A stretch of 64,000 nt of DNA, taken from assembly GCA_946413245.1 (NCBI GenBank), contig CAMKJS010000002.1:22695-86694 (forward strand), read 5' to 3'. Positions 41,794 to 46,701 of the stretch are shown in pieces. This stretch comes from an uncultured Clostridia bacterium. Lineage in GTDB: Bacteria > Bacillota > Clostridia > Christensenellales > Aristaeellaceae. The translations under genes were made by a program, and so were the position numbers. Position 1 is the first letter of the stretch. Each line of letters begins with the position of its first letter. Below the pieces are notes generated by a model. The model had not been told where the DNA came from, did not search any database, and saw only the letters and a program-made list of their open reading frames with translations.

Positions 41794-41823
41794 TCAGCAT
41801 CTTTCACCTGACATATGAATCAG

Positions 41824-41857
41824 AACCACCGGCGCGGCCGGTGGTTTTGATTTTTAT
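41824..41857 (+). terminator. Rho-independent terminator
   Basis: AACCACCGGC-GCG-GCCGGTGGTT then TTGATTTTTAT. Confidence 0.85.
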
Positions 41858-42194: not shown

Positions 42195-43862
42195 TTATCC
42201 CAATCCGTTTTTCATCTCTCTCAATTGTTTCGCCGTCTCCAGATACTCTTCCTGCAGGCGTTCCGGGCTGTCTCCCTTTTTCGGCGCCGACATTCTGGCG
42301 GACAGCGCCGCCAGGCGCATCTCCAGGCTGCTGATCGCCAGCTGCCTGTCCGCCTCGTTCCGGTCCTGCGGCCGGGGCGCCTTCATTTCCTCCAGCGTTC
42401 CTTCAAAAGAAACCAGTTTGCCCTGTTCAAACCGGACGATCCGGGTGGCTGTCTTCCGGATGAATTCCTCGTCATGGCTCACGAACAGCACCGTGCCGCC
42501 GTATTCCGCCAGCAGGCGCTCCAGTTCCTCCAGCGTAAACAGGTCCAGATGGTTGGTAGGCTCGTCCAGCACCAGCAGATTGCAGTCCGTCAGCAGCAGT
42601 CTGGCCAGCGCCACCTTCGCGCGCTCGCCGCCCGAAAGCACGGACACAGGCTTGAATACATCCTCCCGCTGAAAGTTCAGGCGGATCAGCACCGTTCTGG
42701 CCAGGCTCTCCGGATGGACCGAAACGTCCATTACGTTCTCCAGCACCGTCCGGTCCGGCCGCAGCGTCTTCTCGTGGTGCTGGTCGAACCAGCCTGCCCG
42801 GACCGCCGGATTGAACCGAACCGTCCCGTCGAAGCGGATTTCTTCCCCGCTTTGTCCGGCCAGGACAGAAAGCAGCGTCGTTTTTCCGCAGCCGTTGCTG
42901 CCCATCAGGGCTGTACGGCTCCCTGTCGGCAGGGTAAAACCTGTCCGGCTCAGCAGCACGGTTCCTCCGGCTTCCAGCGTGTCGCATCTGCACTCTAGCG
43001 CCGTCCTGGCTTCCACGGGGTGAGCGACGCCCAGCTTCATCCGGATATCCGGAAGCGCTCTGGGCTTCTCCTTCACTTCCATCTGTTCCATGCGGTTCTG
43101 AATCGTCCGCTTGGCGTGACTGAGCTGCAGCACCGCGTCCGTCCACTCCCGGGTATGCAGCCGGGCTTCGCTGTTTCCCATCCGGCTCGGCGCTTTCCGG
43201 ACGGAAGACGCCCGTTCCGCCATGCGCTGGGCCGATTCTTTCAGCCGCTTCTGTTCCGACCGGTACTGGTCGTACTCGAACTGCTGCCGTTCCCGCTGTC
43301 TTCTCCGTTCCTCCATGAAAGCGTCGTAACCGCCGGGGAATACGGTCACCTCTCCGTCTTCCAGATACCAGATCCGTTTGCAGAGCAGGCGGAGCAGCGC
43401 CCGATCGTGCGAAATCAGGATGATCGCGCCGGAAAACTCCGTCAGCTGCCTGCGCAGCAGCGCCAGGCCTTCTTCGTCCAGATCCGTGGTAGGCTCGTCC
43501 GCCAGCAGGAGCTGCGGGTGCTGCGACAGCGCCGCTGAAATCCGGTTTCGGGTCATTTCTCCTCCGGAAAGGCCCTCCCGCGTCTCTCCGGCCCGGAACA
43601 GCGCCCGGATCCGGCTGTCGTCTCCGCCGTTCTCGTTCCCCTGCTGATGGATCAGGGCCAGAGAGCCGGCCCGCTGAACCGTGCCTTCGTCCGCCTCCGT
43701 TTCGCCGGCCAGAATCCGCAGCAGAGTAGTTTTGCCCGCTCCGTTTTCGCCGATCAGCCCGATCCGCTCTCCGTCAAAAACCTCCAGATGATCCAGGCGG
43801 ATCAGCTGCCGGTCCCCGTAATATTTCGTCAGATTGTCCGCTCTCAAAAGCAGTTTCGCCAT
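42195..43862 (-). CDS. ABC-F family ATPase (ribosomal-protection/antibiotic-resistance-like)
   Basis: Two ABC domains without TMs: GENGAGKTT/LSGGEMTRNRISAAL and GSNGCGKTT/LSGGERAKVALARLLL; long charged interdomain linker. Confidence 0.93.
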   Translation of the reverse strand: MAKLLLRADNLTKYYGDRQLIRLDHLEVFDGERIGLIGENGAGKTTLLRILAGETEADEGTVQRAGSLALIHQQGNENGGDDSRIRALFRAGETREGLSGGEMTRNRISAALSQHPQLLLADEPTTDLDEEGLALLRRQLTEFSGAIILISHDRALLRLLCKRIWYLEDGEVTVFPGGYDAFMEERRRQRERQQFEYDQYRSEQKRLKESAQRMAERASSVRKAPSRMGNSEARLHTREWTDAVLQLSHAKRTIQNRMEQMEVKEKPRALPDIRMKLGVAHPVEARTALECRCDTLEAGGTVLLSRTGFTLPTGSRTALMGSNGCGKTTLLSVLAGQSGEEIRFDGTVRFNPAVRAGWFDQHHEKTLRPDRTVLENVMDVSVHPESLARTVLIRLNFQREDVFKPVSVLSGGERAKVALARLLLTDCNLLVLDEPTNHLDLFTLEELERLLAEYGGTVLFVSHDEEFIRKTATRIVRFEQGKLVSFEGTLEEMKAPRPQDRNEADRQLAISSLEMRLAALSARMSAPKKGDSPERLQEEYLETAKQLREMKNGLG

Positions 43863-43864
43863 AC

Positions 43865-44089
43865 AAAAACACGCCCCTCCCATGCCGCGGAAGCGCGTGA
43901 AAAAGCATACGAAAAAACGTTAGGCTCTGCGTCACGCGACCTTCCGACGGCAACATGAAATCACACTCCCGGAGCATTGTTCCGGAAGGGTTGCTGCAGC
44001 CGAAATTCAGTCGCGGATTTTCATCAGTCCCTGAAACCGTCCTTTCTTTGATCTGTCATTAAAATACAGGAACAGAAGCCGTTTGTCAA
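43865..44089 (-). promoter_or_regulatory. Promoter and ~190-nt leader with candidate terminator/antiterminator attenuator of the ABC-F gene
   Basis: Minus strand TTGACA (44084-44089), 17 nt, TATTTT (44061-44066); hairpin CACGCGCTTCCGCGGCATGGGAGGGGCGTG + TTTTT (43865-43899) covering the SD; competing arm GGAAGGTCGCGTGA (43932-43945). Confidence 0.7.
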
Positions 44090-44109: not shown

Positions 44110-45483
44110 TTACTGTTCCAGCACGTTTTCCCGGGTGACGTTCCGCAGCCACTTCTTGCTCCGGTAATGCCCGATAACCCACGGCCATTTCACGAACTCG
44201 TCCGTACACAGCAGAAAATACACCCACATCGGCGGCAGCTTCAGCACCGCGGCGGACAGGAATCCCAGCGGCAGAGCGTAAAGCCACATGTCGATTGTGT
44301 CGCAGACAAACCCGAAGCGGCTGTCCCCGCCCGCGCGGAACACGCCCGCGATCAGGGTGGTATTCACCGCCTGGCCCATTACATAATAGGTATTGATCCA
44401 GAGCATGCCCTTCAGAAAGCCCTTGCCTGTCTCTGTCAGACTGGCGAACCGAAGCACGAACGGCATGGCCGCCAGTACGATCAGCCCGCCGGCCAGCCCG
44501 GACAGCACCGTCAGCTTCATCAGCACCGTGGCGCCCCGGTCCGCCTCTTCCATTTTGCCGTCACCCAGCATCTGCCCCAGCAGAATGCCTCCGCCGCTGG
44601 CCACGCTGAAGCAGAGCACCGTTCCGAAGTTTCTCACCAGGGAGGTGAACGAATTGGCCGCCACCATATCCGTGCCGAGGAACTGGCCGATGATGACTGA
44701 ATACATGGAAAACGCCAGCCCCCAGGAAACGTCGTTCAGCGTCGCCGGCATAGCCATCTTCAGGAAATCCCGGAACAGCAGCTTGCTCTTGATGAACATA
44801 TAGGAAAGCTTCAGCCGGACGTCCTTGCTCCGGGCTGAAACGATCAGCGTCAGCGCCAGCTCGACGATTCTGGAAATCGAAGTCGCCAGCGCGACGCCCG
44901 CGGCGCCGAGCTTCGGGGCGCCGAACAGGCCGAAGATGAACACCGCGTTCAGCAGGATATTCAGCGTAAAGGCCACCGTGTTCAGCGCCGTGCTGACGGC
45001 TACCCGGCCCACGGAGCGGAGCGTAGCCAGATAGATTTCAATCAGGCCCCAGCACAGGTACGCCACGGAAACGTTCCGAAGATATCCGGCGCCGATGGAG
45101 ATCAGATCCGGATCCGGCGTAAAGGCCCGCATCATGAGTTCCGGAATAGTCAGCACGGCAACCGAGAACAGCAGCGTCACACCGACGGAAAAGCGCAGCG
45201 CGATGCCTTCCACCGCGTCTACCGCGCGCATGTCGCCCTTGCCGAAATACTGAGCGCTCAGCATGGTGACCCCGGTCCCCAGCCCGTACAGGATCATGAA
45301 CAGCACCGTGGCATACTGTGTCGCCAGGGAAACCGCCGAGATATGCTCCTGACCCACGAAGTTCAGCATGACCACGTCCGCGGAATTCACCGCGGCGCTC
45401 AGCAGGTTCTGCAGAATAATCGGTCCGGTCAGTTTCAGGATCCGGCCGAAAACAGCCCGTTCCTCTCTGCGGATTGTCAGCAT
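44110..45483 (-). CDS. MATE family efflux transporter
   Basis: LTGPIILQNLLSAAVNSADVVMLNFVGQEHISAVSLATQ; 12-TM pattern. Confidence 0.93.
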   Translation of the reverse strand: MLTIRREERAVFGRILKLTGPIILQNLLSAAVNSADVVMLNFVGQEHISAVSLATQYATVLFMILYGLGTGVTMLSAQYFGKGDMRAVDAVEGIALRFSVGVTLLFSVAVLTIPELMMRAFTPDPDLISIGAGYLRNVSVAYLCWGLIEIYLATLRSVGRVAVSTALNTVAFTLNILLNAVFIFGLFGAPKLGAAGVALATSISRIVELALTLIVSARSKDVRLKLSYMFIKSKLLFRDFLKMAMPATLNDVSWGLAFSMYSVIIGQFLGTDMVAANSFTSLVRNFGTVLCFSVASGGGILLGQMLGDGKMEEADRGATVLMKLTVLSGLAGGLIVLAAMPFVLRFASLTETGKGFLKGMLWINTYYVMGQAVNTTLIAGVFRAGGDSRFGFVCDTIDMWLYALPLGFLSAAVLKLPPMWVYFLLCTDEFVKWPWVIGHYRSKKWLRNVTRENVLEQ

Positions 45484-45702
45484 GCGCTCTCTTCTCCCCT
45501 TCGTTCGTTCCGGCAGAGTATACCACAATCCCGCGAACGCAACAATCTCTCGTGATATCAGTCCCGCGTGCGATCCGAAGATTCCCGTTTCCATTTCATG
45601 GGTTTTCTGTGGTATAATCCGCCTGTCAGATCATTGGCTTCCCGTTTTCCCGATAAGAGGCCGGAGCCGTCTGACCGAATACTGAAATCAGGGAGGCCGC
45701 GT

Positions 45703-46701
45703 ATGACTGTTCAGATGATCACAGATTCTCAGCAAAAGCCGAAGATCGCCCGGGAGATTCTTGAAGCCCTTCCGGACTGGTTCGGTGTGGCGGAATCCAG
45801 GGAAAAATATATTCTGGAAAGTGGGAATCAGCCGTTTTTTGCGGCTGAACAGAACGGCTCGCCCGCCGGTTTCCTGTGCCTGAAGGAGACAGGAAACAGC
45901 ACGGTGGAGCTGGCGGTGATGGGTGTTAAGAAGGAATATCACCGTATGGGCATCGGAAAGGCTCTGTTTCAGGCCGCGAGGAAATACGCGGAGAAGGCCG
46001 GATATCTGTTTATGCAGGTCAAAACGGTTCAGATGGGCCGCTATGAGGATTACGATCGCACGAACCGATTCTATCTGAGCCTCGGATTCAGGCAGTTCGA
46101 AGTCATCCCTACCCTGTGGGATGAGGATAATCCGTGCCAGATCTATGTGCTGTCCCTTGCGGGAGCCTCTGTGCAGGACCTGATCATGAACCGGCGCAGC
46201 TACCGCGGGAAGTATAAACCGGACAAGGTGCCCCGGGAGGATCTCCGCGCCATTCTGGAAGCCGGGCTGGCCGCGCCGTCAGGCTGCAACAAACAGACGA
46301 CCAGCCTGATCGCCGTGGATAATGAAGAGCTGCTGTCAAAACTCAAGGCAGCCATTGATCCGCCTGTGGCGGAAACGGCGCCGGCCATGATCTGCGTGCT
46401 GACGAAAAGGATCGTCGCGTACCGGGACAGATGTTTCGCAACGCAGGATTACGCTGCCGCCATTGAAAACATGCTGCTGGCGATCACGGCGCTGGGATAC
46501 CGGAGCTGCTGGTACGAGGGGCACATCACTGACGCCGACCGGATCGGCGACAGGCTGGCGAAGATTCTCGGCGTCCCGGATGAATACGAGCTGGTCTGCA
46601 TTCTTCCCGTCGGTATTGCGGAAACGGCTCCCGGCTCTCCGAAGAAGCTTCCGTTTGAAGAACGGGCCTGGTTCAACGGATTCCGGAACGCCGATGACTG
46701 A
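45703..46701 (+). CDS. Fusion: N-terminal GNAT acetyltransferase and C-terminal nitroreductase-like domain
   Basis: GNAT: ELAVMGVKKEYHRMGIGKALFQAARKYAEKAG; nitroreductase: DLIMNRRSYRGKYKPDKVPREDLRAILEAGLAAPSGCNKQTT...CFATQDYAAAIENMLLAITALGYRSCW. Confidence 0.9.
   Translation: MTVQMITDSQQKPKIAREILEALPDWFGVAESREKYILESGNQPFFAAEQNGSPAGFLCLKETGNSTVELAVMGVKKEYHRMGIGKALFQAARKYAEKAGYLFMQVKTVQMGRYEDYDRTNRFYLSLGFRQFEVIPTLWDEDNPCQIYVLSLAGASVQDLIMNRRSYRGKYKPDKVPREDLRAILEAGLAAPSGCNKQTTSLIAVDNEELLSKLKAAIDPPVAETAPAMICVLTKRIVAYRDRCFATQDYAAAIENMLLAITALGYRSCWYEGHITDADRIGDRLAKILGVPDEYELVCILPVGIAETAPGSPKKLPFEERAWFNGFRNADD

Follow-up and report, generated by a model that had tools for sequence, protein, structure and literature searches.

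How the synthesis of a ribosome protection factor may be coupled to the state of the ribosome is the question raised by a leader of about 190 nt, located on the minus strand between a MATE gene (44110-45594) and the start codon (43862) of an ABC-F gene in a stretch of 64,000 nucleotides from an uncultured Clostridia bacterium (the window, to which all coordinates refer). An earlier note, made from the letters of this stretch, had proposed a transcription attenuator at this place. The analysis presented here makes it very probable that the leader is a ribosome-mediated attenuator of an ARE-type ABC-F gene, and conservation, covariation and in-silico occlusion all favour a switch under ribosome control in which terminator and antiterminator exclude each other.

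The ABC-F gene and its promoter

The regulated gene (42195..43862, minus strand) encodes a Vga/CplR-like ABC-F ribosomal protection-like protein of 555 aa. The protein scored above the cut-off of NF000355, the general NCBIfam model for ribosomal-protection ABC-F proteins, and the next-best models were Vga and CplR, in both cases under their own curated cut-offs (470 bits vs. 725 for the Vga family, NF000170, and 435 bits vs. 780 for the CplR family, NF043038), which places it outside both families as these models delimit them. Among proteins of solved structure, its best relatives are Vga(A)LC and Lmo0919/VgaL. The NF000355 score and the solved relatives identify an ARE-type ABC-F gene, as found downstream of attenuators of this class, and the likely phenotype predicted from model scores and solved relatives is resistance to pleuromutilins, lincosamides and streptogramin A. 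Of 200 genomes from the window's family, 53 contain relatives of the protein, which also occur in rumen and gut Clostridia contigs.

As the earlier note had read it, the gene has a promoter of its own followed by a leader of about 190 nt. The promoter (44061..44089, minus strand) consists of TTGACA (44089-44084), a 17-nt spacer and TATTTT (44066-44061), and the same element lies 13-16 nt upstream of a GAAAGG motif in 57 of 59 distinct homologous leaders. A dedicated promoter with an untranslated leader, a hallmark of the attenuator class, is thus kept in nearly all of them. In the surroundings, a strong terminator-like hairpin of 17 pairs (41817-41853) lies between a convergent DUF362/ferredoxin-type gene and a small Dabb-like gene that follows the ABC-F gene, and a single open frame on the plus strand (45568-46701) joins a GNAT acetyltransferase domain to a nitroreductase domain.

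Homologous leaders within one family

The 59 distinct homologous leaders belong to one uncultured Clostridia family; 40 leaders were aligned, and 45 close relatives served for counting T-runs. The layout recurs across the 59, with the promoter, a GAAAGGA-GG element, a very short uORF, GCCGTTTGGAGGTTGCG, and a hairpin whose terminal T-run immediately precedes the start codon. Among the 40 aligned leaders, the four pairing segments described below, as well as the ATG and TGA of the uORF, are invariant or nearly so. A covariance model (R1) built from the 5' half of the leader gave one match in the window's genome and 43 matches in 42 of the 200 family genomes, all 43 of them located before this ABC-F gene. 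No other gene with this leader was found in the R1 searches of the family genomes, and no match was obtained outside the family in the sample of the order searched. Rfam yielded no relevant match to the window leader at gathering or permissive thresholds; that the earlier note did not recognise the sequence is explained by the lack of an Rfam family covering it.

More distant relatives of the ABC-F protein carry other leaders. At the level of the order, similar layouts with other sequences occur, for example with uORFs MRNI and MKIR and a T-run before the start (L140, L141). Two leaders (L097, L099) are of a different type: their uORFs read MIIK and MTIR, and their GAAAGGGTAAG 5' ends are similar to the vga(A) leader. 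In L094 the uORF region (MKIC) folds onto the Shine-Dalgarno sequence and start codon of the ABC-F gene (z -3.6), and a similar, weaker fold occurs in L096 (uORF MKNC, z -1.3); L094 looks like a case of pure translational attenuation, and L096 less clearly so. One homologue (L020) has a single internal TGA in the ABC-F frame over the matched stretch, possibly reflecting a broken copy or an assembly error.

A short uORF as the presumed sensor

A short conserved uORF near the 5' end, typical of this class of attenuators, is found at 44007..44024 on the minus strand (ATGAAAATCCGCGACTGA, MKIRD-stop). The earlier note had placed it at 44008-44025, one base off its true position at 44024-44007; the uORF itself is borne out by an ATG and a TGA that are invariant in the 40 aligned leaders. 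It is preceded, near the 5' end of the transcript, by a presumed Shine-Dalgarno sequence, GAAAGGACGG (44037..44046), which is complementary to the 3' end of 16S rRNA and whose AAAGG is likewise invariant in the alignment. The spacing between this element and the uORF ATG is long in all leaders (about 12-15 nt; 44046-44024 in the window), as it also is in the vga(A) leader; this spacing counts against the attenuator reading. The five-codon uORF is the presumed sensor, on which ribosomes would initiate and stall.

Most uORFs comprise five codons (50 of the 59 leaders), eight have four and one has three. The second residue is K or R in 50/59 and the peptide starts with M[KR]I in 33/59, whereas residues 4-5 vary (S, D, V, G, I, Q, K or C) and do so along with segment 2 of the leader, in such a way that RNA pairing is kept and the peptide is not. 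A longer leader ORF from 43977, which had also been offered as a possible sensor, was discarded because its ATG is missing from every other aligned leader. An upstream frame overlapping the uORF start as UGAUG was rejected as well, being unconserved, with a spacer of varying length.

Three alternative helices

The helix that makes the switch scheme work is an anti-antiterminator, absent from the first description of the leader. Its 5' arm, segment 1 (CGCGAC, 44010..44015, minus strand as for all leader elements), coincides with uORF codons 4-5 and pairs with GTCGCG (43940-43935), as indicated by the fold, covariation and a swap test. According to fold and alignment, the helix continues with CGGC (43999..44002) paired with GCCG (43951-43948), for which 98% of alignment cells are paired, and it encloses a variable apical hairpin (43961..43988) that holds the unconserved ATG at 43977. 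Segment 2 (GCCGTCGGAAGGTCGCGTGA, 43932..43951) is common to the anti-antiterminator, with segment 1, and to the antiterminator, with segment 3, on the evidence of folds, alignment and covariation. The minimum-free-energy structure predicted for the leader (-76.1 kcal/mol, z -3.5) contains the anti-antiterminator. Another pairing present in the window fold, between GAAAGGACG and the CGTTTTTTC stretch, was dropped for lack of covariation by eye.

Across the alignment, 94.5-96% of the anti-antiterminator cells are paired, with two-sided compensatory changes in four of the six helix pairs, and only 0-1 of 500 shuffles were as good; sliding the partner by 1-3 columns lowered pairing to 23-67%. Covarying combinations of uORF tail and segment 2 include AGC-stop with GCTGC (L018, L019, L022), GAC with GTC (the window), GGCATC with GATGCC (L081), CGCCAG with CTGGCG (L088) and AGGAAC with GTTCCT (L095). 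These compensatory changes fall on several branches of the protein tree and thus represent several independent events, among them an A-U to G-C change in the window lineage that is absent from its nearest relatives. In the swap test, a uORF tail was fitted better by its own leader than by foreign ones (p<5e-5, 31 distinct tails/leaders). This test was used in place of a per-locus comparison of duplex energy with shuffled leaders, which gave no significant result, since chance alone readily yields short duplexes. As segment 1 lies within a presumably translated uORF, part of its conservation could be at the codon level.

The antiterminator is formed by GGAAGGTCGCGTGA (43945-43932) with TCACGCGCTTCC (43900-43889), extended by GCCG (43951-43948) with CGGC (43887-43884) in the terminator loop, and is therefore even longer than the complementarity to the terminator 5' arm first noticed. 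None of 200 shuffles was as stable (-29.7 kcal/mol), RNAalifold picked this helix with no structure supplied, with four compensatory pairs, and its covariation score was matched in 0/500 shuffles. The competing GC-rich terminator-like hairpin joins TCACGCGCTTCC to GGGAGGGGCGTG (43881-43870) and is followed by TTTTT (43869-43865), GT and the ABC-F start codon (ATG, 43862-43860), as had been described earlier together with the Shine-Dalgarno sequence in its 3' arm; its energy is -18.3 kcal/mol, a stability equalled by 2/200 shuffles. Segment 3 (TCACGCGCTTCCGCGGC, 43884..43900), defined by folds and covariation, comprises the terminator 5' arm and the loop CGGC, and pairs with segment 2 in the ON state or with segment 4 in the OFF state. 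Segment 4 (GGGAGGGGCGTG plus TTTTT, 43865..43881), which rests on the fold and the T-run control, combines the terminator 3' arm, the U-tract and the ABC-F Shine-Dalgarno sequence. Termination in vivo would be expected from the hairpin and its T-run.

Covariation of the terminator helix is weaker, its score being reached in 213/500 shuffles, partly because the helix register shifts between species. The leader thus holds mutually exclusive anti-antiterminator, antiterminator and terminator helices with the uORF in the first, the arrangement that defines the attenuator class, of which the terminator helix alone covaries less. Two of the checks that had been suggested, namely folding of the leader and complementarity in homologous leaders, came out in favour of the switch: terminator and antiterminator hairpins are stable, and the complementarity is kept and covaries, as judged by the compensated anti-antiterminator pairs and the shuffled antiterminator scores.

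Proposed mechanism and in-silico switching

From the sequence and comparison of the leaders, the promoter, the uORF, three alternative helices, their covariation and an exclusive link to the ABC-F gene are established. A mechanism of the following kind is proposed. In drug-free cells the five-codon uORF would be translated and left quickly by the ribosome, its last codons (segment 1) would pair with segment 2, segment 3 would consequently be available to pair with segment 4, and RNA polymerase would terminate at the U-tract, immediately ahead of the ABC-F start codon; in any read-through transcript the Shine-Dalgarno sequence would be locked in the terminator hairpin. In the presence of a drug, a ribosome held on the uORF start codon or slightly beyond it would cover segment 1 with a footprint reaching to about +16, and the freed segment 2 would capture the emerging segment 3, so that no terminator would form, transcription would continue and the ABC-F Shine-Dalgarno sequence would be exposed. 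That the leader responds to antibiotics is proposed by analogy, given the identity of the gene and the characterised homologues cplR, vmlR and rli53; the inducing drug would most likely be a pleuromutilin, a lincosamide or a streptogramin A.

Ribosome occlusion was simulated in 40 leaders with transcripts ending before the terminator 3' arm, in which uORF positions +1 to +16 were forced to be unpaired, +16 being where the edge of a ribosome initiating on the vmlR uORF is reported to lie (PMC9226507). In the free truncated RNA the anti-antiterminator was favoured in 32/40 leaders and the antiterminator exceeded 0.5 in only 6/40, whereas covering the uORF brought the antiterminator above 0.5 in 29/40, compared with 12/40 and 8/40 for two control masks. 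In the window leader, antiterminator probability rose from 0.18 to 0.83 with the uORF covered, and it also rose, to 0.89, with a control mask placed immediately 5' of the uORF. When full-length leaders are folded to equilibrium, the antiterminator loses to the terminator in most of them even if the uORF is covered, and therefore the switch must act kinetically, during transcription. A kinetic decision is usual for attenuators.

Alternative explanations

That the last hairpin merely hides the ABC-F Shine-Dalgarno sequence, with the T-run as an incidental spacer and transcription unattenuated, appears improbable. Such purely translational control would agree with the hairpin 3' arm being the Shine-Dalgarno sequence itself, with the two homologues lacking a T-run (L015, L032), and with L094 and L096, which lack the whole terminator and in which the uORF region folds onto the Shine-Dalgarno region. 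However, at least four T directly follow the hairpin before the start codon in 42 of 45 close leaders, vs. 2 of about 90 other Shine-Dalgarno-led genes from the same genomes (the window and 18 further loci), and termination at the start codon has been demonstrated for the homologous cplR leader (PMC10201436).

It is very unlikely that the leader reads arginine or asparagine supply, or a specific peptide, in the manner of biosynthetic or macrolide leader peptides: the frequency of MRIRN/MKIRN-like uORF peptides would fit such sensing, but residues 4-5 vary with segment 2, preserving RNA pairing over peptide, and the regulated gene serves ribosome protection and not biosynthesis. A ligand-binding riboswitch or protein-binding leader without any role for the ribosome, which a conserved and highly structured RNA might suggest, has equally little to recommend it, since the uORF start and stop are invariant, with 3-5 codons in the 59 leaders, the apical hairpin is variable and without a conserved pocket, and an Rfam match is absent. 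Ribosome-mediated attenuation of transcription thus remains the preferred reading.

Comparison with known attenuators

A close published parallel in features is the cplR leader of Clostridioides difficile, in which transcription ends at the start codon and the terminator sequesters the Shine-Dalgarno sequence; this leader requires its uORF (MRI, inside a 5' anti-antiterminator) and combines transcriptional and translational control (PMC10201436). The window leader shares with it the ARE1-type ABC-F target, the short uORF within the 5' anti-antiterminator, the terminator at the start codon with the Shine-Dalgarno sequence in its 3' arm, and the predicted dual control. It differs in that its uORF usually has five codons instead of three, the last two being the pairing arm, and in that the window protein falls well short of the cut-off for CplR (435 vs. 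780 bits). In Bacillus subtilis, vmlR has a uORF MIN and a logic of anti-antiterminator, antiterminator and terminator (PMC9226507); the three-helix logic, the uORF sensor and the start-codon-stalling drugs would be common to both, whereas vmlR has a separate Shine-Dalgarno hairpin (SL-4) downstream of the terminator. A NusG pause has been shown in vmlR, and here TTNTTT occurs between segments 2 and 3 in only 15/40 leaders.

The Listeria rli53/lmo0919 leader provides a precedent for ribosome-mediated transcription attenuation with a three-codon uORF (PMC8079631); it resembles the window leader in this logic and in its Vga-like ABC-F target, and differs from it in uORF length and in that the window leader has no Rfam match. 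A staphylococcal plasmid vga(A) leader (L144), as read from its sequence, has in common with the window leader a TTGACA promoter, a GAAAGG Shine-Dalgarno motif with long spacing, a tiny uORF (MIN) and a T-tailed hairpin; unlike it, the vga(A) leader gave no R1 match, and its T-tailed hairpin lies apart from the gene's own Shine-Dalgarno sequence. As far as can be judged at the sequence level, the window leader appears to have every testable feature of the cplR, vmlR and rli53 attenuators. The principle is thus already known from Listeria, Bacillus and Clostridioides; what is new is a clade-wide version without an Rfam entry and with a uORF longer than the known three-codon ones.

Implications

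Dozens of naturally occurring variants of a single attenuator, once aligned, reveal that RNA pairing, and not the peptide, constrains uORF codons 4-5, which points to stalling at the start codon as the sensed signal. A further-reaching reading, put forward tentatively and with some doubt, is that in one Clostridia family the sensor of start-codon stalling in the ABC-F leaders, indifferent to the peptide, is retained while the pairing arms are all subject to turnover, with a range from the full four-segment attenuator to a terminator-less uORF/Shine-Dalgarno fold (L094 and, less clearly, L096). If true, the steps that lead from attenuation of transcription to attenuation of translation only could be followed for a single gene. 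A covariance model is supplied for annotating such leaders, and the findings indicate that ribosome protection of the inducible kind is widespread across an uncultured family of gut and rumen Clostridia.
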